36,654 nt of DNA, taken from a virus. Both the position numbers and the translations under genes were made by a program. The DNA is taken from positions 1 to 36,654 of IMG/VR virus record IMGVR_UViG_3300036835_000021. One strand, given 5' to 3'. This document shows positions 752 through 36,654 of this stretch, piece after piece. The notes under the pieces were generated by a model that was given only the letters and a program-made list of their open reading frames with translations, ran no database searches and had not been told where the DNA came from. The first letter of the stretch is position 1. Each line of letters starts with the position of its first letter.

Positions 752-1393
752 ATGGACAAGCTTGTTGTCTTAGTGCCGGTCCTTGGACGCCCGCAGCGAG
801 TGAGGATGGTGCTCGATGGCTTCAGGCGAACCACTCCGGAGGCACGTGTGTGCTTCGTCACCGATCCGGATGACCGACCTGAGATCGACGCCATTGAAGC
901 GGCCGGTGGAGAGATCCTGTGCAGCCTCAAGGCGAACTACGCAGCCAAGATCAACACTGCTGTCGAGAAGACGGCCGAGCCACTGATCTTCCTGGGAGCC
1001 GACGATCTGATCCCGAGCGAGGGATGGCTTGAGGCCGCGCTGGCGTACATGCACGATGGCATCGGGGTTGTCGGCGTCAACGACCACATCCAACGTGGCC
1101 GCAGGCACGCAACCCACTTCCTGATCACCAGGGAGTACGCCGAGCTTCCTGTCATCACTGGCGAGCGTGGGCCGCTGTGCGAGATGTACGACCACTCGTG
1201 CGTCGATGACGAACTGATCGCCACAGCGAAGTACCGGAGCGCCTACGCCTACGCCGAGGACGCCGTGGTGATCCACCTGCACCCGGACAACGGGACTGCC
1301 GCTATTGACGACACGTACCGCAAGGGCCGGAGCAGGATTCGGGATGATCGCAGGCTCTGGAAGAGTAGGTCGATCTGGTATTTGGGAATGTGA
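752..1393 (+). CDS. GT-A fold glycosyltransferase-like protein 1
   Basis: A 213-residue protein starting directly after the connector stop. The N-terminus (LVVLVPVLGRP) is the first beta strand and nucleotide-binding loop of GT-A (family 2-like) glycosyltransferases. GADD at about 82-85 is the expected metal/nucleotide-binding acidic motif, followed by GW. The C-terminal third is basic. It would transfer a sugar from an activated nucleotide donor to an acceptor; neither is identifiable. It is the first of four such genes in a row inside the head-tail gene block. A role in glycosylating virion proteins is inferred from that position. Confidence 0.75.
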   Translation: MDKLVVLVPVLGRPQRVRMVLDGFRRTTPEARVCFVTDPDDRPEIDAIEAAGGEILCSLKANYAAKINTAVEKTAEPLIFLGADDLIPSEGWLEAALAYMHDGIGVVGVNDHIQRGRRHATHFLITREYAELPVITGERGPLCEMYDHSCVDDELIATAKYRSAYAYAEDAVVIHLHPDNGTAAIDDTYRKGRSRIRDDRRLWKSRSIWYLGM

Positions 1394-1415
1394 CTGTGCT
1401 TTTGGTACCGTCAGA

Positions 1416-1421
1416 TACACT
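1416..1421 (+). promoter_or_regulatory. Possible -10 box for a leaderless HNH-like gene
   Basis: TACACT lies 7 bases before ATG 1429, placing a predicted transcription start at or next to the start codon. There is no Shine-Dalgarno sequence. No good -35 box is visible at the right spacing, so this is tentative. Confidence 0.3.
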
Positions 1422-1428
1422 TACTCTC

Positions 1429-1908
1429 ATGCATCCGATGATGGGTAAGCGGTTCGGGTTCCTGACGGTGGTGTGGCCTGCGCCACGACCTGGCGGGCAC
1501 AGCCAGAACCGTAAATACATTTGTCGCTGTGAGTGCGGTGCTCGACGTGTCGTTAGAGGCGACTCATTGAAGAGTGGACGTACAGTGTCATGTACTAAGG
1601 GCGGTTGTCCGACGGTCATGACTCGCGCGACTGTCAAGCATGGGTACCACAATACGCCCACCTATCGGTCGTGGAACTCGATGATCAGTCGTTGCACGAA
1701 CCCCAATGCCACGAAGTATCACTTGTGGGGTGGACGTGGCATCACCGTCTGCGACAGGTGGCGCACGTTCGCAAACTTCTTGGCCGATATGGGCGAGCGA
1801 CCAGATGGCAAGAGCCTTGACCGTACAGACCCTGATGGCAACTACGAGCCAGGGAACTGCCGGTGGGCGACTCCGGTGGAACAGCGGCTCAATCGGACGC
1901 GCCGATGA
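1429..1908 (+). CDS. HNH/AP2-like phage protein, probable homing-type insertion
   Basis: A 159-residue protein. The reading frame is open from GTG 1390, but ATG 1429 fits the family better because it begins MHPMMGKRFGFLTV. A CxC (CRCEC) followed by SCTKGGC forms a possible zinc knuckle. The C-terminal half has the pattern YRSWNSMISRC, GGRGITVCDRW, FLADMG, LDRTDPDG, NCRW. This pattern is common in phage proteins usually annotated as HNH endonuclease or AP2-domain proteins. It sits between two glycosyltransferase genes and shares the core of the protein at 20340-20783. Its upstream third looks less GC-rich than its neighbours. It is probably a mobile cassette; nuclease activity is not proven because no complete canonical HNH triad is obvious. 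Confidence 0.7.
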   Translation: MHPMMGKRFGFLTVVWPAPRPGGHSQNRKYICRCECGARRVVRGDSLKSGRTVSCTKGGCPTVMTRATVKHGYHNTPTYRSWNSMISRCTNPNATKYHLWGGRGITVCDRWRTFANFLADMGERPDGKSLDRTDPDGNYEPGNCRWATPVEQRLNRTRR

Positions 1909-2507
1909 GCATCACCGTTGTCATCGCGAGCTTCGGGGATGACATCTGGCGCGAGTACGCCAAGCGCGCCATCGCCTCAGCCAAGAGCCAGGCTCCTGTC
2001 ATCCATGTTCACGGCGAAAGCCTGGCGGGAGCGCGCAACGATGCTCTGGAGCAGGTTGAGACGGAGTTCGTCGTGCATCTTGACGCCGATGACGTGCTGC
2101 TCCCCGGCTACGTCAATGCGATGCTCCGAGCCACAGCCGATGTGCGCGTGCCGATGGTGCGCAACATGCACAACAACTACCGCAGGCCCTACATGCTGAC
2201 GGTGCATGGCCATCAGCACCAGTGTGGGCCTGGCTGCCTACTCCAAGGCAACTACATAGTTGTCGGTGCTGCTGCTCGCACGGAGCTTGTGCGCTCAGTC
2301 GGCGGCTGGTGGGACGAGCCGATCTACGAGGACTGGTCGATGTGGCTGCGATGCCAGCAGGCCGGGGCATCGTTCGAATACGTCACTCGTGCTGTCTACG
2401 GCTTCCACAAGCGCCCTGACTCGCGCAACCACAGTGGACCGGCTTACGAGGAGCGCGATCTCTGGCATCAGCGCATTCTCGACAGCATCGTGGGAGTGCC
2501 GCTGTGA
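1905..2507 (+). CDS. GT-A fold glycosyltransferase-like protein 2
   Basis: A 200-residue family 2-like glycosyltransferase. ATG 1905 overlaps the stop of the HNH-like gene (ATGA) and gives the classic N-terminus MSITVVIASFGDD. AGARNDAL at about 41-48 is the loop after the second strand in family 2 enzymes. HLDADD at 58-63 is the DxD metal/nucleotide-binding motif. GGWWDEPIYEDWSMWLR around 140-157 provides the acidic catalytic-base motif (ED). Donor and acceptor are unknown. It belongs to the four-gene glycosyltransferase block; the HNH-like cassette separates it from the first member. Confidence 0.85.
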   Translation: MSITVVIASFGDDIWREYAKRAIASAKSQAPVIHVHGESLAGARNDALEQVETEFVVHLDADDVLLPGYVNAMLRATADVRVPMVRNMHNNYRRPYMLTVHGHQHQCGPGCLLQGNYIVVGAAARTELVRSVGGWWDEPIYEDWSMWLRCQQAGASFEYVTRAVYGFHKRPDSRNHSGPAYEERDLWHQRILDSIVGVPL

Positions 2508-3175
2508 CGCCTGAGGTGGCAATAGTGATACCGACGATGGGCCGTCCACGGCTGCTGTTCCCGCTCGCATGGAACATTGCCAAGACGACTCCGGCCGGGA
2601 TCTTCCGGATCTACTTCGTTGTCAACATGGATGACTCGGTGACGCAACAGGCTGTGATCGGGATCGAGGGTCCGGTGCAGATGGTGTTGACACACAAGAA
2701 GGGCTACCCGGCTGCCGTGAACGCTGGCGTGCGAGCGTCCGATGAGCGCCTGATCGCCATTGTCAACGACGACGTGAAGTTCCATGACGGCTGGTGGGAC
2801 GGTCTGCGCAAGGTGCTCCGGCCAATCGTCAGCGTCGTGGCCACGAACGATCTGTCGCCGCACACCGCCAATGGCGATGCCTGCACTCAACCTGTCATCA
2901 GGCGCGACTACATCGATCTGCACGGCGGTGCATGGGGCGAGCCGGGTGTCGCTATGTGTGAGCAGTACTTCCACAACTTTGCCGAGACGGAGCTATTCGA
3001 TCTCGCTGCGCATCGCGGGGTGGCGGTGTTTGCGCCGGAGTGCGTGATCGAGCACGTGCATCCCGACTGGGGCAAAGCCGATGTTGATGCCACCTACATG
3101 GCCGGATCGAAGCGTCCCGGTGGCTGGGAGCACGACCAGGCGCTCTACCTAGAACGGTCGGCGCAATGGAAGTAG
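2504..3175 (+). CDS. GT-A fold glycosyltransferase-like protein 3
   Basis: A 223-residue protein with a GTG start overlapping the previous stop (GTGA). MTPEVAIVIPTMGRP is a typical first strand and loop of family 2 glycosyltransferases. KKGYPAAVNAGVRAS at 65-79 matches the second conserved loop. AIVNDDV at 85-91 supplies the acidic nucleotide/metal motif, followed by GWWDGL. The last 40 residues include EHVHPDWGKADVD, resembling the C-terminal histidine-containing part of other phage enzymes of this kind. Sugar and target are not determinable. Translational coupling to both neighbours suggests the block is made together with head-tail proteins. Confidence 0.8.
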   Translation: MTPEVAIVIPTMGRPRLLFPLAWNIAKTTPAGIFRIYFVVNMDDSVTQQAVIGIEGPVQMVLTHKKGYPAAVNAGVRASDERLIAIVNDDVKFHDGWWDGLRKVLRPIVSVVATNDLSPHTANGDACTQPVIRRDYIDLHGGAWGEPGVAMCEQYFHNFAETELFDLAAHRGVAVFAPECVIEHVHPDWGKADVDATYMAGSKRPGGWEHDQALYLERSAQWK

Positions 3176-3834
3176 AGATCATCATCCCCTTCGCTGGCAG
3201 CAATCTTGACCGCGTTCGGGCGCTGAAATGGGTCACGCAGCGGTGCCAGTTCCCGCACACCATGGCGTTCGGAGAGATCCCCTTCAACAAGGCGCTGACT
3301 GTCATGCCTGCTGTCGAACGCTCAGAGGCCGAGATCGTCGTCATCCACGATGCAGATGTCTGGACGACCGGGCTGGAAGCGGCTGTCAAGGCTGTTGCAG
3401 ATGGTGCGTCGTGGGCGATTCCGCACTGGAAGGTGCTGCGGCTGACGAAAGCCAGCACGCACAGCATCACCATCGGCGGCGAGCCATCAGACGAGCTACT
3501 TGATCGCCCTGCTTATGTGGGCGTTGCCGGTGGTGGCATTGTTGTCAGTAGACGCGACACGCTGCTGGAGATCCCTCTCGATCCTCGATTCACCACGTGG
3601 GGCCAGGAGGACGAATCTTGGGCAATGGCGCTCTGGTGCCTCCTGGGAGAGCCGTGGAGAGGTGAATCGCCGCTAATCCACCTCTGGCACCCGCTGGAGC
3701 CTCGTCAGACGCGCCGGAAGGGCAGCCAGGGAGGCTGGGATCTGCGCAATCGCTACGCACGTGAACGCCACAATTTGGCTGGTATGACACACTTACTACG
3801 AGAAGCGCGTGATGCTCTCCTCCTATCTCGCTAA
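3166..3834 (+). CDS. GT-A fold glycosyltransferase-like protein 4 (galactosyltransferase type)
   Basis: A 222-residue protein whose ATG overlaps the upstream stop. It starts MEVEIIIPFAGSNLDR, has HDADV at 61-65 (DxD motif) and GQEDESWAMAL at 146-156. The last resembles the G-x-E-D-E motif of C-terminal galactosyltransferase/GalNAc-transferase domains, where the acidic residues act as catalytic base. A downstream LIHLWHPLEP resembles the metal-binding histidine strand of the same group. It differs from the other three in this region and probably adds a different sugar or linkage. It directly precedes the head closure gene, which it overlaps. Confidence 0.8.
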   Translation: MEVEIIIPFAGSNLDRVRALKWVTQRCQFPHTMAFGEIPFNKALTVMPAVERSEAEIVVIHDADVWTTGLEAAVKAVADGASWAIPHWKVLRLTKASTHSITIGGEPSDELLDRPAYVGVAGGGIVVSRRDTLLEIPLDPRFTTWGQEDESWAMALWCLLGEPWRGESPLIHLWHPLEPRQTRRKGSQGGWDLRNRYARERHNLAGMTHLLREARDALLLSR

Positions 3835-4168
3835 CCGGCTCCGGCGCGACGTGACGATTCAGCACAACACTGAGTCGGGGAATCTGGATGTCTACGGTAC
3901 TGACATCCCGGACGTGCAGGAGCTACGTGTCAAGGGTGAGTTGCAGCAGCACTCGCGCGATGAGGCAGAGGGCACGATCTCGCAGACGAACTGGCTGCTG
4001 ATCCTCCCGGCCAAGACGCCGATTGACACCAATGATGTCGTCGTGGTGGACGGCGACACCTACGAGGTGATGGGCGATCCGTGGCAGGCGTTCAACCCTC
4101 GTACCGGCGAGTACGAGCACGTCGAGGTGTCGCTACGCAGGACATCCGGCGAGGAGATCGCGGCATGA
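3812..4168 (+). CDS. Head closure (stopper) protein
   Basis: About 118 residues; ATG 3809 is an equally possible start one codon earlier. It is an all-beta small protein with the pattern of SPP1 gp16-like head-tail stoppers: short N-terminal segment, a sheet ending in VVVDGDTYEVMGDPWQ, then a final strand EHVEVSLRR. In siphophages this ring closes the portal channel after packaging and docks the tail. Order supports it: connector, then (after the inserted glycosyltransferases) stopper, tail terminator, gp10-like protein, major tail protein. The gene overlaps the end of glycosyltransferase 4 by about 20 bases. Confidence 0.7.
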   Translation: MLSSYLANRLRRDVTIQHNTESGNLDVYGTDIPDVQELRVKGELQQHSRDEAEGTISQTNWLLILPAKTPIDTNDVVVVDGDTYEVMGDPWQAFNPRTGEYEHVEVSLRRTSGEEIAA

Positions 4169-4989: not shown

Positions 4990-5559
4990 ATGGCTTGGAA
5001 CAATGCAGACGAACTCGTGGTGGCAGGCAACGGCGAGGTGTACGCCGCGCCTGTCGGCACTCCGCTTCCGGCCGACGCCGTGAGTGCGCTCAACGGCGGC
5101 TTCGTCGGACTGGGCTACGCGACCGAGGACGGAGCCACGCTGACCGTCACGCCAGAGGTCACCGACTTCATGGCCTGGCAGTCGCGCTCTCCGGTGCGCC
5201 GCGAGAAGACCAGCCAGGAGATCCAGATCGCCGTCGCCCTCATGCAGTGGAACGAGGAGACGGTGCCGCTGGCGTTCGGTGGCGGCGAGGTGTCCGGCTC
5301 GGCCGGTGCCTTCCGCTACGACCTTCCGAGCGACGAGGCCGCGCTGGACGAGCGTGCCCTGGTGCTCGATGCCATCGATGGCGACACCCACCTGCGCTGG
5401 GTGTTCCCGCGTGGCAACGTCACGGAGGCCGTCGAGGCTGCCTTCCAGCGCGCGAACCCGGCTTCCCTGCCGATCACGTTCAAGGCGCTGGCACCGGCCG
5501 CTGGCGAGTCCCCCGGCTACTTCCTCACCGACAGCGCTGCCTTCTCGGCCGGTTCGTGA
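4990..5559 (+). CDS. Major tail tube protein
   Basis: A 189-residue protein preceded by a clear ribosome site (AAGGAG at 4975-4980). It starts MAWNNADELVVAGNGEVYAA and continues PVGTPLPAD, a pattern seen in many actinobacteriophage major tail proteins. The middle has the beta-rich VTDFMAWQSRSPVRRE segment and the C-terminal part a strand LPITFKALAP. It would stack as hexamers around the tape measure to build the tube. The strong ribosome site and the upstream gap fit high expression. The tail assembly chaperone gene follows immediately (TGATG). Confidence 0.85.
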   Translation: MAWNNADELVVAGNGEVYAAPVGTPLPADAVSALNGGFVGLGYATEDGATLTVTPEVTDFMAWQSRSPVRREKTSQEIQIAVALMQWNEETVPLAFGGGEVSGSAGAFRYDLPSDEAALDERALVLDAIDGDTHLRWVFPRGNVTEAVEAAFQRANPASLPITFKALAPAAGESPGYFLTDSAAFSAGS

Positions 5560-6347: not shown

Positions 6348-9300
6348 ATGGCCGTCAAGGCAGGTAGCGCGTATGTTGACATCGAAGGCGATTTCAGCGC
6401 GCTCAACAAGCAGGTTGCCACTCACTTCAAGAACCTTGACACCCAAGCGGGTGGAATGGGCAAGCGGATCGGCAGCAAGCTTGGCCATGGGATAGCGACC
6501 GGAGTCAGGGGAGCAACACGTGTCGGCGCGGTAGGCGTTGGCCTGCTGACGGCTGAGGTCATCCGTGCGACGAAGGGCTGGGCCGACCACGAGGCCATCG
6601 TGCGCCGGTCCAACGCGGTGGTCAAGTCCACTGGCGGTGCCGCGAATGTCAGTGCAAAGCATGTTGGCAGGCTGGCTGATGCGCTTGAGCGCCAGGTGGG
6701 CGTCGATGGTGATCTGATCCAGAGCGGGGCGAACCTGCTGCTGACGTTCACCAACATCCGCAACGGTGTTGGCAAGAACAACAAGATCTTCGATGAGGCC
6801 ACGAAGACGACGGTCAACATGTCGAAGGCGCTGGGCCAGGACACGAAGTCCTCAGCGATCCAGCTAGGCAAGGCGCTCAACGATCCCGTCAAGGGCATCA
6901 CCGCGCTCCAGCGTGTCGGCGTCAGCTTCAACGCGCAGCAGAAGGAGACGATCAAGGCGCTCGTCGGGACGGGTAACGCGCTGGACGATCTCAAGACTGT
7001 TGGCGTCGCACTGACCAGCGAGCAGAAGAACCAGATCAACGTGCTGGGCGATCTGGCTGATCCGTTCGCGGCCGTCAAGGATCTGAACCTCGAACTGACC
7101 GACGCGCAGAAGAAGCAGTTGAAGGCGATGCAGGATGGCTCCGGCGCGATGAAGGCGCAGAAGATCATCCTCAAGGAGCTTGGCAAGGAGTTCCCGAAGG
7201 TCAAGGCCACGCCGTTCGAACGCCTGGTCGCTGTCGGCCGTCAGGTGGAGGACACCATCGGCAAGGCGGTGCTGCCTGCCTTCAACAAGCTTGTCAGGCA
7301 GGTCACTCCGGGCCTGCAACGGATTGCCGACAAGTTCGACAAGATTCTTGGCGACAAGAACCTCACTGTCGGTGAGAAGCTGAGCAAGATGTTCGCGGCG
7401 GTCGATGTCGAAGTTGATCCGCTCATCGACAACATCGTTGAGAAGATCCGTGAGGCTCATCTCGATGAACGCCTGAAGAAGCTGGCCAAGGACGGTGCGC
7501 CTGAGCTTGCCGAAGGCTTCAAGGAGGTCGGCGGGACAGCCGCTGGAGCGCTGTGGGAGGGCTTCAAGGCAGCACCACTGTGGACAAAGGTGCTCGGTGC
7601 CGGGTTCGTTGCCAAGGCGCTGTTCGGAGGCGGCGGTCGTGGTGGCGGCATGGGTGGCATCGGTAGTCGGGGAGGCTCGTTCGGAGTTGCTGGTGGCCTG
7701 GCGGCGAGAGCCTTCAAGACGGCGTTCGAGGCCGGGGCGATCAAGCTGTCAACCGGCAGCGGCCTCACTGCCAAAGTGGCAACGTTCTTCACAGGTAGAG
7801 GAACGACGCCTGCCAACCCTCTCTTCGTTGCCGATGTCGCAGGTGGACTCGGTGGCGGGAAGGGTCCTGGCGGTGGTCCCATTCCTGTGCCTGGCGGCAA
7901 GGGCATTCTCGGCAAGCTCAAGGGTGCTGCCAAGTTCGGCGGGAAGCTTGCGGCGGCTGGCGCTGCGCTCGACTTCGGCATCAACCTTGTTGACTCTCAC
8001 GGCAACCCAATCGCCGCGACGATCAACACTGCTCACGATTTGACGTTCGGGATCACTCCGAAGGTCGAGGTCAAGACTGGTAAGGAGCGCCAGGACGAGC
8101 AGTTCCGGAAGGTTTCAGAGCAGATCGACAAGATGGTGTCAGAGGGCAACATCAGCGGCATGAAGCGGCTCGCTGATGAAACGGAAAAGCTTGCGCATCC
8201 GTGGGCTGAGTTTGGCGACCAGACCGTGGATCAGAAGTACGCCGATCTCAACGAGCAACTCAGGGAAACCGTCAAGCTCGCGGAACAAGGCATCCATATT
8301 GACTTTGATGACAAGGATGCCGTCAGAGCCGCGAAGCGAGTGGGCGACTCGATGGAGCGGATGAGGAGCGGGTCGTCGCGCAGCATCGGCAGCTTGAAGA
8401 CGAACGTCCGGATGCAGATGCGCGCGATCAAGCGCACACTGGGCGAGGACAGCGCGGCTGGCAAGGAAGCGATCAGCGCGAACTTCAGTGCTGCCATCGA
8501 GAACATCAAGACTTCGATGAGTGAAGGCACTATTAGTGTCAAGGACGGCACTGCTCTCATCCAGCAGTACATGGTCAACTCGCTGATGAACTTCGGCTTC
8601 TCCAAGAAGCAGGCGCTCAACATTGCGAAAGATCCGACACGCCGCACCTCGTTCATCGGAGGCCCGGAGGAAGGCACTCGTGGGCCTGGTCATGGTCAGC
8701 ACGGTGGCTACGTCTTCAACGGTGCTGCGTCTGGCGACTCAGTGCATGCCCTGCTGGAGAAGGACGAGTACGTGCTCAATCGCAAGGCTGTCAAGAAGGT
8801 TGGCAAGGCAGCGCTCGACCGACTGAACTTCGGCATCGCACCGCGCTTCCAGCGAGGCGGCAGCGTTAGTGGCGACACCGACGTTCTCCCCGGCATGCTC
8901 GACCGGCTGCGTCGATTGTCTGCTGCGGCAGGCGTCCCGATCTTCATCTCGTCCGGCCGACGCACCCTGCAAGAACAAGCTCTGCTCTACCGGGAGAAGG
9001 GCGCTTACAGTCCGACGAACCCTGGTGCTGCGGCTCCAAGCCCGAATGCGCCTCACGTTCGTGGCATTGCTGCTGACATCACGCCTGGCGTCGGGACGCT
9101 GGGCCGGTTGGCTGCTCGGTTCGGCCTCTACTTCCCGATGGCGAACGAGCCGTGGCATATCCAGCTAATGGATGCGGCGATTACTGCTGCTGGCCAGGCG
9201 GTGTCGGTGGTGGCCGAGAAGATCGCTGGTGTGCGAGTTGCTGGGCCTGACTCAGCACTTCGGACGATCTCTCAGCGCGCCATCGACATCACGCAGGGCG

Positions 9301-10976
9301 CAGCGCAAGGTGTCGTCAACAGCGTTGCCAACAATATGTCGGTTCAGCCTGAGTTCGGTGAGAACCCAGTCAGTGGCGGTGGTGTGACTGGCAATGGCTC
9401 GGGCCTGATGAGGTTGATCTCTAAGCAGCGTGGCTGGAACTTCCCGGACTGGTGGGCGCTCGACGCATCGGAGACGAGCCACGGCGCGAACCTCTCCAAC
9501 CCGACTTCGACCGCTCGCCTGCGTGGCCAGTTCCTGAGTGGCAACTACGGCAAGTACGGGCCTGGCTCAGATCCCTCGCAGAACCCGACGATGGCGCAGC
9601 AGATCTACTCGATGGCTCGCTACATCGCGGAGCGCTACGGCAACCCGACAAGAGCATGGGCATTCCACCAGGCGCACAACTGGTATCAGCGCGGTGGCAG
9701 CGTCAACGTCAAGAAGCTGACGAAGCTGATCCGCCGTGGGCCGGTGCCCTCAGGCCAAGCCATCAAGAAGGTTGTCTCCGCTATTGGCAAGACGAGCAAG
9801 AAGGGCAAGCTCGCTGGCGCTGGGAAGACGCTGCGTAGGCGACTGATCGACCGCATCAGGGGTCTTGGCCTCCCGGACTCGGTGAAGGATCTCGTGGCGA
9901 AGGAGGCCCTGGTCAATCGCTACGACGATCTCCAGTCGCACGCGGGCACGTTGACCGACTCCGGCGTGATCCAAGAAGCGCTCGAAGCGCAGCAGCAGAA
10001 GCTCGGGCGCGATCTCACCCCGGCTGAGCAGGACGCAACCATCTTGTCAATGCTCGGTCGCGTTCAGGGCAAGACGCAGATCGAGTGGCTGGCAGAGGAG
10101 TTGGGTGCGCTCGGTAGCTGGCGCAACGCGCTGATCCGTGTCCACATCACGCTCAGGGATCGGCTCCAGAAGTTCTCGGCGTCAATAGAGGCGGCAAAGA
10201 AGCGCCGAGACTCGCTGCACAAGGCGATCATCAACGCGAGGGACAAGAGGGCAAGTCTCCAGAAGCAACTCAAGGGTTCCAAGGGTGCGAAGCGCGACCG
10301 GCTGAACGGCCAGATCAAGGGTCTTGACAAGGACATCAAGGTCTGGACGCTGGAGTACACGACGCTCAGTGGGCCGAACGGAGTGATCCCACGGCTCAGC
10401 GACAAGCGCGAGGTCTTCAGGACTGCTCTCACCGACGCCGACACCGATCTGTCAGAAGTGCAGGGGTCCGTCGCGTCTGGTGACAAGTACCAGCAGTTCT
10501 CCAGCTTGCAGGGCCTGGCCATCGGGCGACTGCTCGGCAACATCTTCGAGGTGCAGAACGCGCTCCGCACGTCTGGCATCAGTAGCTACAGGATTCCGGC
10601 GAGCGACACGCAGACACCTGACACCGCCGACGATCCGAGCAAGGAGATCCTGCAACAGCTTCTCCGCGAGGCCAACCTGCGCACGGCTGTCTCGGAGGCT
10701 CAGTTCGCGGTCTTCAAGAACCTGCCCTTCGGTGGCTTCTTCGACAAGGGTGGCACGGTGCCAGGGCCGGTCGGAGCCGCACGCATGATCGTGGCCCACG
10801 GTGGCGAGGTCGTCGTGCCTGGTGACGCTGGCTACGTGCCTCACGTGTCCGTTCACTTCGCCAACGGAATGGAGTGGCTAGGCCGATTTGTTGACATCAG
10901 AGTTGATAACCAGACACGTGCGCAGGGTCGCCGCAGTGAGCGGCAGCTTCCTGGCCGTCCAGGGGTGCTTCGCTAA
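6348..10976 (+). CDS. Tape measure protein with M15 peptidase and transglycosylase domains
   Basis: A 1542-residue protein that sets tail length (about 230 nm at 1.5 angstrom per residue, inferred). Residues 1-190 are the usual N-terminal core. Residues 190-273 contain three tandem 28-residue units. A Gly-rich stretch lies at about 425-445. At about 845-940 there is a VanY/M15-type peptidase: SSGRR at 868-872, H903 and D910 in HVRGIAADI, E934 and H937 in EPWHIQ. At about 1027-1112 there is a lysozyme-like transglycosylase domain, with E1042 as likely acid and NPTSTARLRGQF after it. A coiled-coil-rich region lies at about 1270-1350. The last part includes GGFFDKGGTVPGP and HGGEVVVPGD, frequent at tape measure ends. 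The two domains would open peptidoglycan during DNA entry. Confidence 0.9.
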   Translation: MAVKAGSAYVDIEGDFSALNKQVATHFKNLDTQAGGMGKRIGSKLGHGIATGVRGATRVGAVGVGLLTAEVIRATKGWADHEAIVRRSNAVVKSTGGAANVSAKHVGRLADALERQVGVDGDLIQSGANLLLTFTNIRNGVGKNNKIFDEATKTTVNMSKALGQDTKSSAIQLGKALNDPVKGITALQRVGVSFNAQQKETIKALVGTGNALDDLKTVGVALTSEQKNQINVLGDLADPFAAVKDLNLELTDAQKKQLKAMQDGSGAMKAQKIILKELGKEFPKVKATPFERLVAVGRQVEDTIGKAVLPAFNKLVRQVTPGLQRIADKFDKILGDKNLTVGEKLSKMFAAVDVEVDPLIDNIVEKIREAHLDERLKKLAKDGAPELAEGFKEVGGTAAGALWEGFKAAPLWTKVLGAGFVAKALFGGGGRGGGMGGIGSRGGSFGVAGGLAARAFKTAFEAGAIKLSTGSGLTAKVATFFTGRGTTPANPLFVADVAGGLGGGKGPGGGPIPVPGGKGILGKLKGAAKFGGKLAAAGAALDFGINLVDSHGNPIAATINTAHDLTFGITPKVEVKTGKERQDEQFRKVSEQIDKMVSEGNISGMKRLADETEKLAHPWAEFGDQTVDQKYADLNEQLRETVKLAEQGIHIDFDDKDAVRAAKRVGDSMERMRSGSSRSIGSLKTNVRMQMRAIKRTLGEDSAAGKEAISANFSAAIENIKTSMSEGTISVKDGTALIQQYMVNSLMNFGFSKKQALNIAKDPTRRTSFIGGPEEGTRGPGHGQHGGYVFNGAASGDSVHALLEKDEYVLNRKAVKKVGKAALDRLNFGIAPRFQRGGSVSGDTDVLPGMLDRLRRLSAAAGVPIFISSGRRTLQEQALLYREKGAYSPTNPGAAAPSPNAPHVRGIAADITPGVGTLGRLAARFGLYFPMANEPWHIQLMDAAITAAGQAVSVVAEKIAGVRVAGPDSALRTISQRAIDITQGAAQGVVNSVANNMSVQPEFGENPVSGGGVTGNGSGLMRLISKQRGWNFPDWWALDASETSHGANLSNPTSTARLRGQFLSGNYGKYGPGSDPSQNPTMAQQIYSMARYIAERYGNPTRAWAFHQAHNWYQRGGSVNVKKLTKLIRRGPVPSGQAIKKVVSAIGKTSKKGKLAGAGKTLRRRLIDRIRGLGLPDSVKDLVAKEALVNRYDDLQSHAGTLTDSGVIQEALEAQQQKLGRDLTPAEQDATILSMLGRVQGKTQIEWLAEELGALGSWRNALIRVHITLRDRLQKFSASIEAAKKRRDSLHKAIINARDKRASLQKQLKGSKGAKRDRLNGQIKGLDKDIKVWTLEYTTLSGPNGVIPRLSDKREVFRTALTDADTDLSEVQGSVASGDKYQQFSSLQGLAIGRLLGNIFEVQNALRTSGISSYRIPASDTQTPDTADDPSKEILQQLLREANLRTAVSEAQFAVFKNLPFGGFFDKGGTVPGPVGAARMIVAHGGEVVVPGDAGYVPHVSVHFANGMEWLGRFVDIRVDNQTRAQGRRSERQLPGRPGVLR
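6915..7166 (+). repeat. Triple 28-residue repeat inside the tape measure gene
   Basis: Three adjacent 84-base units encode residues 190-217, 218-245 and 246-273, starting VGVSFNAQQKETIKAL, VGVALTSEQKNQINVL and LNLELTDAQKKQLKAM. The DNA copies are clearly diverged. Tape measure relatives I remember carry a single unit followed directly by AQKIILKELGKEF, so two units look inserted or duplicated. Confidence 0.75.
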
Positions 10977-13074: not shown

Positions 13075-15510
13075 GTGTCGGCATACAGCGATCTGATCCT
13101 CGGTACTGCGGGACTCATCTCGTACTGGCGGCTGGGCGAAGTCAACAATACTGACCCTGTTGTTGACAGCAAGGACGGGAACAACGGGACGGCCAACGGG
13201 AATGCACTGCGCCAGGCAGTCGGTCTGCTGACGGCCGACAACGATACTGCTGCTCATGGCGACGGTGTGACCGGTAGCTACCTCCGGATTCCTCGCACTG
13301 CCAACATGAATGTCGGGGCAAAGCTCTCGGTCGAGGCATGGGTCAAGATCGATGTCTACAAGAGCGCCAAGCTCGTCTCGCGCGATGGCCCTGGCTGGTA
13401 CTTCTCGATGAGCGGCAGCACGAGCTTGCGCTTCGGTGTGCGCGACACGAACTTCGTGGACACGTTGATCGACGCCGTTGGGTATCTGATCCCTGGCGTT
13501 CGCATCCACCTTGTCGGCACCTACGACGCAGCCGGGGCGATGAAGTTCTACGTCAATGGTGTTTCCGTTGGCGCACCGAGCCGCACGCCGAATGCGAACG
13601 TGCTCGACTCTGGCTCGGGGATCATCAGCATGTTCTCCGAGAGCAACTTCCACACTGCGGCGCAATGCACGATTGACGAGGTGTCGTTCTACAACACCGT
13701 GCTGAGTCCGGCACAGGTGCAGGCACACTTCGACACCGGCCGTGGTGCATTCGACTCCTGCACCGGCTCAATAGGCTTGTCAGGAACGTGCGATGACCGC
13801 TACGTGCTTCCTGGCTGGCTGTCACCGCGCATCCGCGAGCGTCCTCCGCTGCGGCACATGATCGACGCCATGACGCCTGGTGGTCTGCACTACCGCTGGG
13901 CTGGCGATGAGCACCGTGCCGAGAACGTCTTCAGTGGGCTGCGCTGGTCGTCCACGATGCCAGGTGGCCACGAGAACACGGATCTCGTGCTCACGCGCTT
14001 ACCGGATGTCGTCTACAACGACTTGGAGCGCTTCACGACGCTGAAGATCATCAGTGCTGGCGGCAACGTCGTTGGCGAGTTCCGGCTTGAGCGCACGCCG
14101 CAGACTTCGGGCGATCAGATGGCGATCTCTCCCAGCGCTGTCGGCTGGCAGGCGCATCTCGATGACAACAAGACTGTCAGCATCGTCTTCATCGACCGCG
14201 AGCTTGGCAACTGGGGCGAGCCTTCGCGCGCTCGATTCCTCATCCTCGATGCTGCGAACTACACGGTTGTCGGTGGCGGCACAGTCATGCCAGATCCGAC
14301 ATCAGGCGTGCCGACATTGGAGATAGGGTTCGATGATCCTGGTGGCTGGACGGCAGCCAACCGTCCGATAGTTGAGCCGCTATATGACGCTGGTGCTGGC
14401 AACTTCCTCGGCCGCTTGCGAGCGAATTGGAGTGTCACTGGCATCACGCTGACAGATGCAGTCTGGTCATTGGTTGCCCTTCTCGCTAGTACTGACTCAC
14501 TGGGCGTCAATGACCAGTCGCCGGACCAACTCGCCGGAGTGGCGGGAGTCAGTTCGGGCACGTTCGATGTGGCGGCAACAGCACCTCGGCGGTTCGCTTC
14601 CTTGGAACTCACTTACGCGAACGCAAGCGTTGCAACTGGTGTCAACGTTCATTACGGGTGCGTGATCACGAATCTGCGCGTCTTCGGTAACCATGGTTTG
14701 CCGATCCGTGGTTCGACGCCGCAGACGGAGGGCTTCTTCGCCTCGGATATTGTCAAGTATGCCGTCAGCAAGTTCGCACCGCTGCTGAAGATCACGCCTG
14801 ACTCATTCCAGGCGACGAACTTCATCATCCCTCAGTCGGCGTTCCGCGACGGCACGACGGTGAGCGAGATCGTCAAGCAGAGCACACGCTTCGGCCTCGA
14901 AGACTGGTGGGTCGGCAACGACAAGACCTTCTACTTGCATCCGCGCGGTCTGAACCCGCTGGCTCGGCGGTGGCGGCTGCGGATTGGTCCGGCCAAGCTG
15001 GAGCAGACCGGCAAGCAGGCTGACCGGCTGTGGGAGAGCATCGTTGTTCAATTCAACGATGTTGACGGCTCTACGAAGACCGTTGGCCCTCCTGGCTCTG
15101 GCTGCGACGTGGAGAGCGTCTACCTGCGGGACTCCGATCCGGACAACCCTGCCAACAGGCTCAACATCACTCGCCGCGACAAGCTCATCATGGGCACGAG
15201 CACGGCCGAAGGAGCCATCGAGGTCGGTCGGCGCTTCCTTGAGGAGCAGAAGGCGCTCGACCGCTCGGGCCGCGCCGTCATCGTCGGCCACGCCGAAGAC
15301 GATCACGGTGTCATCTGGCCTTACAGCGAGGTCAAGGCCGGAGATCTCGCCACATTCATCGATGCAGCCGACGTGAGCTACAGACGCATCGTGAAGGCCG
15401 ATCACGACGAGGCGACTAAGACGGCCACCATCGATCTCGACGCACCGCCTGAGGGCCTTGAGGCGGTTCTGGAACGCCTCGGTGTCGTGCTCGTCCCGCT
15501 GGGGCTGTGA
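13075..15510 (+). CDS. Tail tip protein with N-terminal LamG-like domain
   Basis: An 811-residue protein with a GTG start 12 bases after the upstream gene. Residues about 10-225 form a LamG/concanavalin-like domain: LISYWRLGE, LSVEAWVKID, IHLVGTYDAAGAMKFYVNG, IDEVSFYNTVLSPAQVQAHF. Residues 240-811 look like a tail hub protein (Tal/gp27-like) in actinophage style, with FIIPQSAFRDGTTVSEIV, EDWWVGNDKTFYLHP and a C-terminal DYRRIVKADHDE-like strand (seen as SYRRIVKADHDE). It probably forms the central tip and contributes receptor binding. The LamG call is firm; the hub assignment rests on position and pattern. Confidence 0.7.
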   Translation: MSAYSDLILGTAGLISYWRLGEVNNTDPVVDSKDGNNGTANGNALRQAVGLLTADNDTAAHGDGVTGSYLRIPRTANMNVGAKLSVEAWVKIDVYKSAKLVSRDGPGWYFSMSGSTSLRFGVRDTNFVDTLIDAVGYLIPGVRIHLVGTYDAAGAMKFYVNGVSVGAPSRTPNANVLDSGSGIISMFSESNFHTAAQCTIDEVSFYNTVLSPAQVQAHFDTGRGAFDSCTGSIGLSGTCDDRYVLPGWLSPRIRERPPLRHMIDAMTPGGLHYRWAGDEHRAENVFSGLRWSSTMPGGHENTDLVLTRLPDVVYNDLERFTTLKIISAGGNVVGEFRLERTPQTSGDQMAISPSAVGWQAHLDDNKTVSIVFIDRELGNWGEPSRARFLILDAANYTVVGGGTVMPDPTSGVPTLEIGFDDPGGWTAANRPIVEPLYDAGAGNFLGRLRANWSVTGITLTDAVWSLVALLASTDSLGVNDQSPDQLAGVAGVSSGTFDVAATAPRRFASLELTYANASVATGVNVHYGCVITNLRVFGNHGLPIRGSTPQTEGFFASDIVKYAVSKFAPLLKITPDSFQATNFIIPQSAFRDGTTVSEIVKQSTRFGLEDWWVGNDKTFYLHPRGLNPLARRWRLRIGPAKLEQTGKQADRLWESIVVQFNDVDGSTKTVGPPGSGCDVESVYLRDSDPDNPANRLNITRRDKLIMGTSTAEGAIEVGRRFLEEQKALDRSGRAVIVGHAEDDHGVIWPYSEVKAGDLATFIDAADVSYRRIVKADHDEATKTATIDLDAPPEGLEAVLERLGVVLVPLGL

Positions 15511-15520
15511 GGTCTTGTGA

Positions 15521-15802
15521 GTGTCGCCGCTATTGGCAGTCCTCGATCTCCCGGCACTGATCTCACTGGCCATCGGTGTCTTCGGGGTCGGTGGCCTGAT
15601 CTTCACTGCACTGCGCTACCGCCGCGACGACACGACCGCCATCGTCAATCAGCAGAACGTCATCTTGAGCGACATGAAGACGCTCAACGATGAACTGCGC
15701 AAGACGGCCGACGATCTACGTGGTCAGCGCGATGCCTTGCAGATTCAGGTTGAGCAGTTGACAGCACAGGTGTCGGAGTTTGAAGGGAAGCTCGATGGCT
15801 GA
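15521..15802 (+). CDS. Single-pass membrane coiled-coil protein, holin-like candidate
   Basis: A 93-residue protein with a GTG start. One hydrophobic helix at about 9-31 (LPALISLAIGVFGVGGLIFTA) is followed by a basic RYRR and then a long amphipathic coiled coil (about 43-90, LNDELRKTADDLRGQRDAL). The basic residues after the helix predict the coiled coil on the cytoplasmic side. It lies after the tail genes, where actinophages usually keep lysis genes, and overlaps the collagen-like gene. It could be a holin, an antiholin or a scaffold for its partner. No sequence motif proves a lysis role. Confidence 0.55.
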   Translation: MSPLLAVLDLPALISLAIGVFGVGGLIFTALRYRRDDTTAIVNQQNVILSDMKTLNDELRKTADDLRGQRDALQIQVEQLTAQVSEFEGKLDG

Positions 15803-16520
15803 TCTTGACGCCATGGCCACCGAGATCTCAGAGCAGACCAGGCGCGCGCTGTGGTACTCGCGCTCTCGCTTCCTCGGCACCTGGCTGGCGTTGGCGCTCC
15901 TGGCTGTGATGACGGCCATCGCCCTGTGGCTAGCTATCAACACTGCTGCTGATCAGGATCGAGTGACGACGAAGCTCGCGTCAAAAGCAGGCAACTCGGC
16001 GGGAAGGGCCAATGACAAGAGCAATAACATTTATCTGTTTCTCCGTGGCCAGAGAGGGCTACCGGGCGTGCCGGGTGCTGACGGCAAGGACGGATCTCCC
16101 GGCCAGCCTGGTAGCAATCCTGCGCTCTTGCCTCCCGGACCCAAGGGAGACACCGGGGCGACGGGATCGGCCGGTCCAACGGGTGCCAGTGGTCCTGTGG
16201 GAGCCACCGGAGCAGTGGGTCCGGTCGGCGCTTCTGGACAGAACGGTGCCATCGGCGCTACTGGCAACACTGGTGCCAAAGGAGATCAAGGCGAGCAAGG
16301 CCCGCAAGGCGACAGGGGAGACGCCGGAGAGTCAGGAGCGCAAGGCGTCCCAGGACCACAGGGAGAGCCAGGCCCGCAAGGACCACAGGGCGTGCAGGGA
16401 GTACAGGGTCCGGCTGGTCCCGTCTGCCCTGATGGCTCGGCGCTTCAGGCGTTCGATGTGCATGCACGTAACCCGGAAAGAACGTTGACAATCGTCGGAT
16501 GCGTGGTGACGCCGCCGTAG
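15795..16520 (+). CDS. Membrane-anchored collagen-like protein
   Basis: A 241-residue protein; ATG 15795 overlaps the previous gene by 8 bases. Residues 1-26 are polar, 27-50 form a transmembrane helix ([20 protein letters not shown]), 51-84 a linker. Residues about 85-213 are nearly uninterrupted Gly-X-Y triplets, at first proline-rich then GATG/GPTG-type and GPQG-type. A short globular end with two cysteines follows (VCPDGS and VGCVV). Collagen triplets form trimeric rods. In phages they usually occur in fibres, but here an N-terminal anchor and the last place in the late operon suggest a cell-envelope or lysis-associated protein. It is the last rightward gene before paired hairpins. Confidence 0.75.
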
Positions 16521-18859: not shown

Positions 18860-18889
18860 ATGAAACGGTACTCTAGGCGGTACTCTTGA
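18860..18889 (+). CDS. Nine-residue leader ORF overlapping the integrase start
   Basis: ATG 18860 opens MKRYSRRYS and stops at TGA 18887-18889, which overlaps the TTG start of integrase (TTGA). An AGGA lies ten bases upstream. The peptide's RYS-RRYS is encoded by the 12-base direct repeat. The integrase has a weak start and no own ribosome site, so translation could depend on reading this leader. Confidence 0.4.
   Translation: MKRYSRRYS
18866..18886 (+). promoter_or_regulatory. Second GGTACTC direct-repeat pair (putative integrase arm sites)
   Basis: CGGTACTCT occurs at 18866-18874 and again at 18878-18886, a 12-base period, ending on the first base of the integrase start codon. Binding of integrase here would let it regulate its own synthesis. 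Confidence 0.5.
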
Positions 18890-20034
18890 CACGTCTTCCT
18901 ACAGGCTCGCTCGTCGTCGCTGTCGCCAAGGACGGTTCCCCGCATTGGGAGGCCAAATGGCGTCATCAATCGCGTCAGATCAAACGCAGGCTTGGACCGG
19001 CACATCTTGTTCCCGCTGGCGACGGCTGGCGCAAAGCCCCTGGCAGGCCCGTTGACGGCGTTCTCGACCGTACCGACGCTCTGATCGCCCTGCGCTCCCT
19101 GATCGCCACTCACGCTGCTCAGGAGGCCGAGAACGCGCTGCCAGAACGGCCCACGTTCAGCCAGGCAGCGGAAGCCTGGTACGAGCGCGCTCAGAGGCGT
19201 GGACGCAAGCCAGCAACGCTGTTGGCGTACCGCTGGGTGATCAACGCCCACATCCTCGGCCAGCGCACGTTCGAGAGCACCGCGATCCGCAAGCCCTGCC
19301 CGTTCGCAGACAAGGGCGTTGACAAGCTCAGCAAGGACGATCTGCGCGGCTGGTTCGACTCGATCCCGCACTCGCCTCAGAAGATCAATGTCTTCAAGAT
19401 CGTCAAGAGTGTTCTGGCCTACGCCATGAGCGAGGGCTGGACGACGGAGAACGTCGCCAGGCATGTTGACTGCCGCACGACGCACGAGAGCGACGGCTAC
19501 GACTTCTACGACGCCGATGAGGTCGAGCGTCTGATCGGAGCCGCCAGAGACGACTACGACGCTGCCCTGTTCGCCATAGCGGCCTACACAGGGATGCGCA
19601 AGGGCGAGATCTTCGCGCTGCGCTGGCAGGACATCGACTTCGAGCACAGGCGGATCACCGTGCGCCGTAACTACAGTGGCCGAGAGATCGTCACGCCCAA
19701 GAACGGGAAGTCAAGAGTGGTGCCGCTTATCGCGCTGCTGGCAGAGCAGCTTGAGGCGTATCGGGATTCCGCAATGTCCGGAGATTCGGCCACGGTGTTT
19801 GCGGGTTCCTCGGATGCCGCGATGGACCGCTATCGAGCCGCGCTCAAGCGAGCCAAGTTGCGGCGGCTGCCCTTCCACTCGCTGCGCCACAGCTTCGGCA
19901 GCCACGCCGTGAATGTCGCCACTCTTGTCCAAGTCAGAGACTGGCTCGGGCACAGCGATCTGCGGATGACGGCGAGATACCTCCATGCCAAGAGCCTTGA
20001 GTCCGATGCGGATCTCCTGGCATCGGCCTGGTGA
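18886..20034 (+). CDS. int: Tyrosine recombinase (phage integrase)
   Basis: A 382-residue protein with a TTG start. Residues 7-75 are a beta-rich arm-type DNA-binding domain (GSLVVAVAKDGSPHWEAKWR). Residues 90-195 are the SAM-like core-binding domain. Residues 205-382 are the catalytic domain with R238 (TGMRKGEI), K272 (TPKNGKS), H331-x-x-R334 (HSLRH), H356 (WLGHSD) and nucleophile Y365 (RYLH). It catalyses site-specific recombination between attP and a host attB, so the phage is temperate. No downstream gene is co-directional; a hairpin follows within three bases. The Xis-like protein at 20783-21214 is the probable directionality partner. Confidence 0.95.
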   Translation: MTRLPTGSLVVAVAKDGSPHWEAKWRHQSRQIKRRLGPAHLVPAGDGWRKAPGRPVDGVLDRTDALIALRSLIATHAAQEAENALPERPTFSQAAEAWYERAQRRGRKPATLLAYRWVINAHILGQRTFESTAIRKPCPFADKGVDKLSKDDLRGWFDSIPHSPQKINVFKIVKSVLAYAMSEGWTTENVARHVDCRTTHESDGYDFYDADEVERLIGAARDDYDAALFAIAAYTGMRKGEIFALRWQDIDFEHRRITVRRNYSGREIVTPKNGKSRVVPLIALLAEQLEAYRDSAMSGDSATVFAGSSDAAMDRYRAALKRAKLRRLPFHSLRHSFGSHAVNVATLVQVRDWLGHSDLRMTARYLHAKSLESDADLLASAW

Positions 20035-30523: not shown

Positions 30524-30573
30524 TAGCGACACACGACAGCTAGCGCCGCATGGCGCAAGGAGAGATAAGCCGA

Positions 30574-31464
30574 ATGGCTGACAACATCGTTGAACTGATT
30601 CTCGGACTCGCGGAAGCTGAGGAGCCGGACTGGGATGCTCGTCTCGCCCGCATCCCCGGCTGGCATCCGCGCAACGAGAGCGGTTCGGGTTCAGGAGGTG
30701 GCTCGGGCAGTGGCTCCGGTGGGGGATCGGGGTCAGGCTCGGGCAGCGGCGACGGAGGTGGCTCGGGGTCAGGATCAGGATCGGGGTCGGGCGGCAATGA
30801 CGACAACGATGATGACGATGACGACGATGACGACACCTCCGGTGGCTCGGGCGGTGGCGGCAAGATCGACTGGAAGAAGATGGCCCGTCGTCACGAGCGC
30901 GAAGCCAAGAAGGAGCGCAAGGCTCGGGAAGCTGCCGAGGCCAAGATCGCGGAGCGCCAGACGGCCGACCAGAGCGATCACGAGAAGGCCGTCAACGACG
31001 CTCGCGCAGAAGGTGAGCGCGCAGCCAAGGAGGCAGCCGACAAGGACCGCCGCTCAGACCGGCTGGAGAACGCCACGATCAAGATCGCTGGCAAGGGCAT
31101 CAAGGTCACCGTCAAGGAAGATGACAAGGATGTTGAGAAGACGCTCAGGTTCACTGACCCTGACGACGCCTTCGTGAACATCGAGCGGATGATCCGTAAC
31201 GGTGATCTCGATGAGGACGACTTGTTCAACGACAACGGTCGTGTCAACAACGATGCGCTGATCGAGGCGCTGGAGGAACTGCTCGAAGCCAAGCCGCATC
31301 TCGTCGCTGGCACCAGCAATGGCGGCGGCAGTGGCTCAGGCTCGGGTGCCGGTGGCCGCAAGGTCAAGGGCAGCGCCGATGGCGGGAAGGGTTCGGGAGG
31401 AGGCAAGTCGGTGGCCGACATGTCAACTGACGAGCACTTCGAGAGAATCCGTCAGCACAGGTGA
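30574..31464 (+). CDS. Scaffolding protein with Gly-Ser/Asp low-complexity linker
   Basis: A 296-residue protein. ATG 30574 has AAGGAG upstream; ATG 30550 has none. Residues 1-33 form an N-terminal helix and W-rich end, then 35-74 are almost only Gly and Ser, and 76-87 nearly only Asp/Asn. Residues about 100-175 are a charged coiled coil (ARRHEREAKKERKAREAAEA), typical of scaffolds. A folded segment, IKIAGKGIKVTVKEDDKD, is followed by a helical DPDDAFVNIERMIRNGDLDE. A second Gly-Ser stretch precedes a C-terminal helix (MSTDEHFERIRQHR), probably the capsid-binding element. It directs prohead assembly and leaves before maturation. Confidence 0.8.
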   Translation: MADNIVELILGLAEAEEPDWDARLARIPGWHPRNESGSGSGGGSGSGSGGGSGSGSGSGDGGGSGSGSGSGSGGNDDNDDDDDDDDDTSGGSGGGGKIDWKKMARRHEREAKKERKAREAAEAKIAERQTADQSDHEKAVNDARAEGERAAKEAADKDRRSDRLENATIKIAGKGIKVTVKEDDKDVEKTLRFTDPDDAFVNIERMIRNGDLDEDDLFNDNGRVNNDALIEALEELLEAKPHLVAGTSNGGGSGSGSGAGGRKVKGSADGGKGSGGGKSVADMSTDEHFERIRQHR

Positions 31465-31502: not shown

Positions 31503-31532
31503 GGTGCGTCATCTGTCAGCGGGTGACGCACC
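31503..31532 (+). terminator. Hairpin between scaffold and major capsid genes
   Basis: GGTGCGTCA (31503-31511) pairs perfectly with TGACGCACC (31524-31532) around a 12-base loop. It lies in the 142-base gap before the capsid gene and may be a processing, attenuation or mRNA-stabilising structure rather than a full stop. Confidence 0.5.
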
Positions 31533-31606
31533 ACATAGGGCAAGCCGCAGGGCTTCGCCGCCTCCGCTGCACAGCGACCAATGTCAATACAGGAGAAAGG
31601 TTCGCT

Positions 31607-32512
31607 GTGCCCAACGATCTCATCACCCCAAGCCTGATCGCAAGGGTCGGGCTGGCAACGCTCTACAACACGGCGGTCTTCGCCGGACTGGCGTGGCGCG
31701 ACTTCGATCCCGACTTCGCTGGCAAGCAGGGCGACACGATCACCATCCGTCGCCCCGCCGTCTTCGAGGCCAAGGACTTCAACCGCGCGACCGGCATCGA
31801 GCTTCAGGACATCGATGAGGACGGCGTTCCGCTGACCCTCGATCACCTGGCCGACGTGTCGTTCCCCGTCACGAGCGAGGAACTGACGCTCAGCATCGAT
31901 GACTTCTCGGCAAGGCTGTTGACGCCTGCCATGGAGGCCATCGTGCAGAAGGTCGATGCGGCGCTGGCCGAGGCGGCTGTCGATGCCGCGCTTGGCGCTG
32001 GCGGCGGCGGGACCGCGACGATGGACGCCAAGGCGTCTGACGTGATGATCGAGGCCCGCGAGATCCTGACCACGAACAAGCTCCCGGCCACGCAGCGCTA
32101 CGGCGTGCTGTCTCCGGCAGGGACCAGCGTGGCGCTCAGCGACCCGCTGTTCGTGGAGGCCGACAAGTCCGGCTCGACCGACGCACTGCGCGAGGCCAGC
32201 CTGGGACGTGTCTTCGGCATTGACACCTACGAGTCGCAGGTGTTCGGTTCCGGTCCCGGCAACGCTGGCGAGGCCGATGGCGTGGCCTTCCACCGCACCG
32301 CCGTCACGCTCGCGAGCCGTGCGCTCCAGGCTCCGATGGGCGTCAGCGCCGACTCGGTGGCCGTCGAGTCCTACAGGGGCCTGACGCTGCGCGTGGTCTA
32401 CGACTACGACGTGAAGTACAAGCAGGACATCGTGTCGGTGGACTTCCTCTACGGCACCGCCGCGACCCGTCCCGAAGGCGCTGTCGTTCTCGACATGGGC
32501 CAGGGTTCCTGA
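31607..32512 (+). CDS. Major capsid protein
   Basis: A 301-residue protein. GTG 31607 is chosen because AGGAGAAAGG lies just upstream and the protein then begins MPNDLITPSLIARVGLATLY, the usual start of this actinophage capsid family. An open extension upstream to 31523 crosses the hairpin. The sequence continues GKQGDTITIRRPAVFEAKDF, DHLADVSFPVTSEELTLSID and RLLTPAMEAIVQKVDAAL, and later a beta region RGLTLRVVYDYDVKYKQDIV. It has the HK97/P22-type coat pattern. It forms the icosahedral shell. The DNA upstream holds a strong ribosome site, in line with high expression. Confidence 0.9.
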   Translation: MPNDLITPSLIARVGLATLYNTAVFAGLAWRDFDPDFAGKQGDTITIRRPAVFEAKDFNRATGIELQDIDEDGVPLTLDHLADVSFPVTSEELTLSIDDFSARLLTPAMEAIVQKVDAALAEAAVDAALGAGGGGTATMDAKASDVMIEAREILTTNKLPATQRYGVLSPAGTSVALSDPLFVEADKSGSTDALREASLGRVFGIDTYESQVFGSGPGNAGEADGVAFHRTAVTLASRALQAPMGVSADSVAVESYRGLTLRVVYDYDVKYKQDIVSVDFLYGTAATRPEGAVVLDMGQGS

Positions 32513-33005: not shown

Positions 33006-33068
33006 ATGACGATGCCGGTCCACTCTCCCGAGCGAGGCGTGGGCCGGTTCGTCGTTCTGGTGGCCTGA
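33006..33068 (+). CDS. Possible 20-residue coupled ORF
   Basis: ATG 33006 opens MTMPVHSPERGVGRFVVLVA and its stop overlaps the next start (TGATG). The ribosome site is weak (GAGGACAAG). Coupling to the big repeat gene is the only support; it may be a leader peptide. Confidence 0.35.
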   Translation: MTMPVHSPERGVGRFVVLVA

Positions 33069-36454: not shown

Positions 36455-36654
36455 GTGTTACCAGTCTCACTGACTACCGTCCGATGCCGCGCTATGACGG
36501 CAACGCATGGACAGTGGCGAGGATCGAAGGGTCGGATGCGGAGGACAGCGCTGCGTGGACGACGCTGGCGACTCTGCCGCTCGAAGAACCCGACACTGAT
36601 CCGGCCGCTCCTGCCGTCCGCAACTTCACCATCGACTTCGAGGATCAGTCGGTG
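36417..36654. repeat. Right copy of 238-bp terminal direct repeat
   Basis: It corresponds to 1-238 with two silent base differences (G36519, C36606). It contains the end of the repeat protein and the start of the connector gene, showing how the window ends join. Confidence 0.95.
36451..36654 (+). CDS. Partial second copy of the connector gene (5' part)
   Basis: First 68 codons of the same gene as 35-751, cut by the window end. The protein is identical to the first copy over this length, because both nucleotide differences are silent. The ATG overlaps the stop of the repeat protein (ATGA). Confidence 0.9.
   Translation, partial: MSVTSLTDYRPMPRYDGNAWTVARIEGSDAEDSAAWTTLATLPLEEPDTDPAAPAVRNFTIDFEDQSV

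Follow-up and report, generated by a model that had tools for sequence, protein, structure and literature searches.

What is the role of four glycosyltransferase (GT) genes lying among the head and tail genes of a phage? The question is raised by the viral record IMGVR_UViG_3300036835_000021, analysed here over its whole length of 36,654 nucleotides (the window). A first-pass annotation had described at positions 752–3834 a block of coupled GT-A-type genes between a connector and a head closure gene, and proposed that they assemble a multi-sugar glycan on a virion protein. The four genes are present, on the + strand, between the head-tail adaptor Ad1 (the connector) and the head closure protein Hc1, and the proposal of a multi-sugar virion glycan finds good support in synteny, enzyme fold, homology with enzymes of mycobacteriophage Che8 and a tag carried by the capsid and tail-tube proteins. 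We consider it quite probable that through this cassette an O-linked glycan is assembled on the Ser that terminates the major capsid and tail-tube proteins.

GT1 (752–1393), GT2 (1905–2507) and GT3 (2504–3175), all on the + strand, match Pfam models of the GT2 enzyme family and phage families named “glycosyltransferase”: PF13641 (E=1.2e-4) and phrog_14945 (E=1.6e-12) for GT1, PF13632 (E=5e-11) for GT2, PF00535 (E=1.7e-4) and phrog_14945 (E=2.8e-12) for GT3. The last enzyme, GT4 (3166–3834, + strand), gave no match in Pfam and only a weak one in PHROG (phrog_1721, E=0.0021); it is known by its AlphaFold model and its relative gp109 in Che8. The structure prediction suggested by the first-pass annotation gave confident models for GT1 and GT4 (predicted local distance difference test, pLDDT, 88.7 and 88.9), whose best matches in the PDB are GT-A enzymes: SpsA for GT1 (E=4e-9), beta-1,4-galactosyltransferase (E=2e-7) and GalNAc-T2, a ppGalNAc-T, for GT4. 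By comparison of these predicted structures GT1 and GT4 have a GT-A fold, while GT2 and GT3 are assigned as GT-A-type enzymes from profiles and alignments. The DxD-like motifs, i.e. GADD in GT1, LDADD in GT2, NDD in GT3 and DAD in GT4, have metal-site Asp columns that are invariant among orthologues, and the GxED motif of GT4 (WGQED) is likewise conserved. GT1 is 66%, 48% and 49% identical to its orthologues in the contigs L008, L009 and L010 respectively, and the start of GT2 at 1905 is consistent with its orthologues. The block had been thought to hold four different enzymes: there are four GT genes, but GT1 and GT3 are paralogues (29% identical, both in phrog_14945) and the enzymes are therefore not of four unrelated kinds.

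To place the block among relatives, alignments were required as queries: when GT1, GT2 or the tail tube alone was used to scan viral contigs, no matches came up, and an alignment of 16 tail tubes was too heterogeneous to serve as a query. The best 80 of 134 matches to a GT1/GT3 alignment were taken, 76 non-redundant GT1 loci were compared, and a capsid alignment supplied contigs with a matching neighbourhood plus many GT-free phages. The block recurs, more than expected by chance, in matching order and place in dozens of contigs of uncultivated phages: GT1-GT2-(GTx-GTy or GT3)-GT4, in the capsid-to-tail interval, either between Ad1 and Hc1 or between the major capsid protein (MCP) and Ad1. GT2 directly follows GT1 at 55 of the 76 GT1 loci, and 31 of them contain, in this order, 1-2-x-y-4, where a second GT1-type gene may stand for x; GT3 of the window occupies the slot held by GTx-GTy in most relatives. 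Recognisable structural genes lie upstream of at least 46, downstream of at least 36 and on both sides of at least 33 of the 76 loci, these counts being minima, since contigs break off and structural genes have diverged. The order is for example Ad1-GT1-GT2-GT3-GT4-HNH-Hc1 in L008, Ad1-GT1-GT2-GTx-GTy-GT4-Hc1 in L009 and Ad1-GT1-GT2-GTx, up to the contig end, in L010. The Ad1 of L008 (10018–11187, 389 aa) carries, right before GT1, a C-terminal collagen-like and tail-fibre-like extension that the Ad1 of the window does not have.

Variants of this arrangement are found. GT1-only loci (L046 type) read capsid, GT, unassigned open reading frame (ORF), GT1, epimerase, adaptor. In two Streptomyces contigs (L015 and L016) the genes after the capsid encode, in turn, a GT-B enzyme, a protein without assigned family, a methyltransferase of the FkbM type and a GT4 fusion. 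In these Streptomyces prophages GT4 is fused in frame, at its C-terminal side, to a head-tail connector domain (L015 13135–14100; L016 from 13128) that matches phrog_2322 (E=9.7e-7) and phrog_12035. Stretches resembling this domain are separate small ORFs in the GT-free relatives L012 and L014. Cassettes also include NAD-dependent epimerases/dehydratases, a PIG-L deacetylase, an Stf0 sulphotransferase and methyltransferases, accessory sugar genes which fit what is expected if a glycan is built and decorated. Individual examples, all within cassettes, are the Stf0 sulphotransferase of L033 (5904–6449), the PIG-L deacetylase of L188 (10708–11412) and a polysaccharide-biosynthesis dehydratase of L036 (9461–10474).

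The location of the genes also bears on whether the GTs alter a surface glycan of the host, in lysogenic conversion or superinfection exclusion. An ORF at 18886–20034 that resembles a tyrosine recombinase/integrase, judged by eye on its translation, would suit such a role. But the GTs are embedded in the late structural operon, none of the four has a transmembrane segment (maximum KD19 1.23) and no Gtr-type flippase was noticed in the block, so that modification of the host surface appears very unlikely.

The substrate of the virion glycan that we favour was sought at the ends of virion proteins. According to secondary sources (PMC12619734, PMC11256854, PMC11600133 and PMC12363180), the glycans of mycobacteriophages are borne by the C-terminal ends of the capsid and tail-tube proteins, and we therefore inspected these C termini. 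In the window the MCP, a P22-like coat protein (31523–32512, + strand; PF11651, E=7.9e-40; phrog_283), ends in ...LDMGQGS, and the tail-tube protein (4990–5559, + strand; PF25681, E=1.1e-35) in ...AAFSAGS. Capsid ORFs of the relatives were assigned by hidden Markov models (HMMs), phages were classed as GT-free on the basis of about 6 kb of flanking sequence, and counts were made on non-redundant sequences. The last residue of the capsid is Ser in 27/30 phages with GTs versus 0/44 without (p=3.5e-17), and that of the tail tube in 34/35 versus 4/50 (p=3.9e-18). Ser enrichment is confined to the last residue, nothing comparable being seen at positions -2 to -12 of either protein; in an alignment of 16 tail tubes from cassette phages the final Ser is among the 12 invariant columns. 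The capsid, one of the substrates named by the first-pass annotation, is supported, and the tail tube is to be added to it.

The same relation holds in samples taken in other ways. In the capsid-baited scan alone, which does not select for GT content, the six GT-bearing contigs (L113, L114, L133, L147, L169 and L188) all have capsids ending in Ser, versus none of the GT-free contigs. Within one clade the capsid ends in ...LIKGADAAGS in L169, which has GT4, and in ...LIKGADAA without GT; in close relatives the tag thus looks appended. Among out-of-sample cultured phages, those with GTs (Che8, Brujita, Dylan, Neville and Courthouse) have Ser at 9/10 ends, versus 0/10 for five phages without an annotated GT in the fetched region. 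The portal, taken as a control, ends in Ser in 0/37 cases; for other virion proteins the values are 11/43 (Ad1), 8/24 (Hc1) and 10/33 (tail terminator). Three candidates were set aside: L136 and L151 as apparent exceptions, in which a methyltransferase-like gene stands alone, with no GT of the cassette, and Tweety as a GT-loss control, since it still encodes other GTs. Separately, both proteins of L163 are tagged (capsid, 9720–10637, ...GADAAGS; tail tube ...AVSSS) and no cassette GT was found on its 16-kb contig; its GTs may lie elsewhere in its genome.

Could the terminal Ser be an ancestral or structural trait which simply accompanies the cassette, while the GTs act on another virion site? 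The cassette phages are partly related, and the tree-based sign tests alone miss 0.05. Tag and cassette nevertheless change together in 5/5 independent pairs on the MCP tree, and in 4–5/5 on the tree of one tail-tube family; moreover the tag is missing in close GT-free relatives and is present in several capsid families (phrog_283, phrog_267, phrog_10 and phrog_2263). We therefore regard an inherited Ser of this kind as unlikely. Several points still weigh against a Ser-linked glycan on both proteins. The tree-corrected tests have five pairs each, for which p=0.0625 is the smallest possible value. The capsids of the GT-bearing contigs L064, L069 and L090 end in Ala and that of Courthouse in Asp, four GT-free tail tubes end in Ser, and the L046-type group tags the capsid alone (phrog_10, ...GGAS), its tail tube not being Ser-ended. 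GTs located elsewhere in “GT-free” genomes would be missed, since only about 6 kb of flank was inspected. Finally, the terminal Ser might serve for recognition, with the true site next to it, or fulfil some other function. It seems to us fairly likely, though by no means assured, that a last-residue Ser, in most cases preceded by Gly or Ala, acts as a portable tag for glycosylation on two unrelated virion proteins, and that in several capsid families, far beyond mycobacteriophages, it is gained and lost together with a modular GT cassette.

Phage virion glycosylation is already known: Freeman et al. (2023) reportedly described it in the mycobacteriophages Che8, Corndog and Myrna. For Che8, two sources describe a capsid and a tail tube modified with glycans (PMC12363180, PMC12619734), and one of them calls gp110 essential for capsid glycosylation (PMC12363180). 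Like the window, Che8 encodes several GTs, and its two proteins end in -GS (capsid ...KTGS, tail tube ...SDGS). Its gp109 is a relative of GT4 (86.9 bits against the GT4 HMM) and its gp108 a distant relative of GT2 (30.5 bits against the GT2 model), GT2 matching the N-terminal half of gp108. In contrast to the window, the GTs of Che8 are at the far end of the genome, outside the head-tail interval, and Che8 lacks GT1/GT3. For its gp110 (GT25-like, phrog_854) the window offers no clear equivalent: gp110 does not match the GT1/GT3 profile and matches GTx weakly (13.8 bits), and the window has no full GTx gene. The window-type cassette, unlike the Che8 system, is spread over uncultivated phages and, in part, over Streptomyces prophages.

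Two further mycobacteriophages, Courthouse (cluster J) and Dylan (cluster O), resemble the window in having genes for GTs and methyltransferases next to those for capsid and connector, with members of phrog_1721 as in Che8, but their GT families, gene order and capsid proteins are different. Actinoplanes phage phiAsp2 has coupled GT, GT-methyltransferase and GT genes (Pas33–35) 3' of its tail genes, the N-terminus of Pas34 matching GT1 at 28%; unlike those of the window, they do not lie between adaptor and head closure. phiAsp2 is outside the cassette group: its annotated capsid ends in ...GCCP, untagged, and its annotated major tail protein in Ser. The block of the window is an extended variant of the known virion glycosylation of mycobacteriophages, the glycan itself being predicted.

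These comparisons also bear on DNA as a target. Glycosylation of DNA is a classical role of phage GTs, and some relatives of the present GTs, in large Streptomyces phages, lie among replication genes. That the block modifies phage DNA (glucosylated or hypermodified bases) against restriction is nevertheless highly improbable: dozens of contigs have the GTs within the head-tail operon, GT4 is related to an enzyme of Che8, whose virions are glycosylated, and the Ser tag would be left unexplained. In the block we noticed no partner gene of base-hydroxylating or thymidylate-synthase-like type, no dedicated whole-genome search having been made.

A protein of 1128 aa with repeats (33068–36454, + strand), for which no Pfam or PHROG family was found, had been presented by the first-pass annotation as the natural substrate, neighbouring and Ser/Thr-rich. 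It is adjacent to the block side of the genome across the circle junction, between capsid and Ad1, but its content in Ser plus Thr is only 20%, against about 12% in the other large proteins of this phage. In this case the GTs would glycosylate a head-fibre- or decoration-like protein, capsid and tail tube not being the main targets. However, capsid, Ad1 and GT1 can all be seen at 20 cassette loci, and 11 of these have no repeat protein between capsid and Ad1, which follow each other directly (gap below 100 bp). Since many cassette phages lack it at this place, its role as natural substrate is unsupported. Its domains are in addition reshuffled among close relatives, and such a substrate leaves the association with terminal Ser unexplained. 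We hold it very unlikely as the main target; it may be an extra substrate. In the relative L006 the repeat protein (7603–9987) shares 40% identity over 247 aa with a gene of the tail region of the window (13075–15510).

For the glycan on terminal Ser of these two abundant virion proteins, capsid and tail tube, we propose the following scheme as the most economical. Soluble, metal-dependent GT-A enzymes would be produced alongside the head and tail proteins from the late operon and would draw activated sugars from the host cytoplasm. One enzyme would prime Ser and the remaining ones lengthen the chain, giving a short O-glycan on a flexible C-terminal tail (...GQGS for the capsid, ...SAGS for the tail tube), and hence a sugar coat on head and tail tube during particle production. 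Lineages would alter the glycan by exchanging GT3, GTx, GTy, epimerases, methyltransferases and similar genes. We infer Ser as the attachment residue, as well as the priming enzyme, the number and identity of the sugars and the biological benefit. GT4-type enzymes (phrog_1721) are in nearly all the tagged phages examined and are natural candidates for priming Ser. We leave GT4 as a mere candidate, because gp110 is called essential in Che8 (PMC12363180) and because Tweety keeps the Ser tag with only a GT4 remnant. The benefit in soil is perhaps protease resistance, adsorption or evasion of defences. Shielding from antibodies by virion glycans has been reported for mycobacteriophages.

The surroundings of the block are those of the late structural operon, on a circular map. 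The last 238 bp of the record (36417–36654) repeat positions 1–238 with two mismatches, both synonymous. The contig is thus a circle of about 36,416 bp, which places the head genes immediately upstream of the block; the two differences indicate a polymorphic sampled population. The rotated order is TerS, TerL, portal, MuF-like protein, scaffold, P22-like capsid, a small conserved protein, the 1128-aa repeat protein, Ad1, GT1, HNH, GT2, GT3, GT4, Hc1, tail terminator, neck, tail tube and tape measure. The block is bordered upstream by Ad1 (35–751, + strand; phrog_137, E=1e-15) and downstream by Hc1 (3809–4168, + strand; phrog_501, E=8.9e-9). The genes were described as coupled, and they do overlap by 4 to 10 nt within the block, GT4 overlapping Hc1 by 26 nt; they were also described as consecutive, which is wrong, an ORF that is not a GT separating GT1 from GT2 (1390–1908, + strand; phrog_374, E=2.5e-56). 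From this profile match and from its other insertion point in L008, after GT4, this ORF is assigned as a homing-type HNH endonuclease; its GC content at third codon positions (GC3) is 0.64, below most neighbours. Elsewhere in the window, a gene near the end of the tail genes (15780–16520) encodes a protein whose hydrophobic N-terminal segment precedes a long Gly-X-Y stretch of the collagen type, and the scaffold-like protein (30550–31464) has long Gly/Ser and poly-Asp runs.

Our literature search found no paper that joins C-terminal serine, phage, glycan and capsid, although the primary Che8 paper might mention the serine. Within the literature searched, what is new is a widespread ordered head-tail cassette and its tight tie to a last-residue Ser on two proteins. 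Documented glycosylated particles are those of a few mycobacteriophages; if the interpretation is true, the phenomenon reaches many uncultivated and Streptomyces-type phages, and the position of the sugar is predicted to one residue in each protein. Small soluble GTs possibly acting on a minimal C-terminal acceptor would also be of interest for glycoprotein engineering. Virion glycosylation would then be widespread and predictable from the last residue and the cassette, and this pair of genes and tag may allow glycosylated phages to be recognised by sequence alone.

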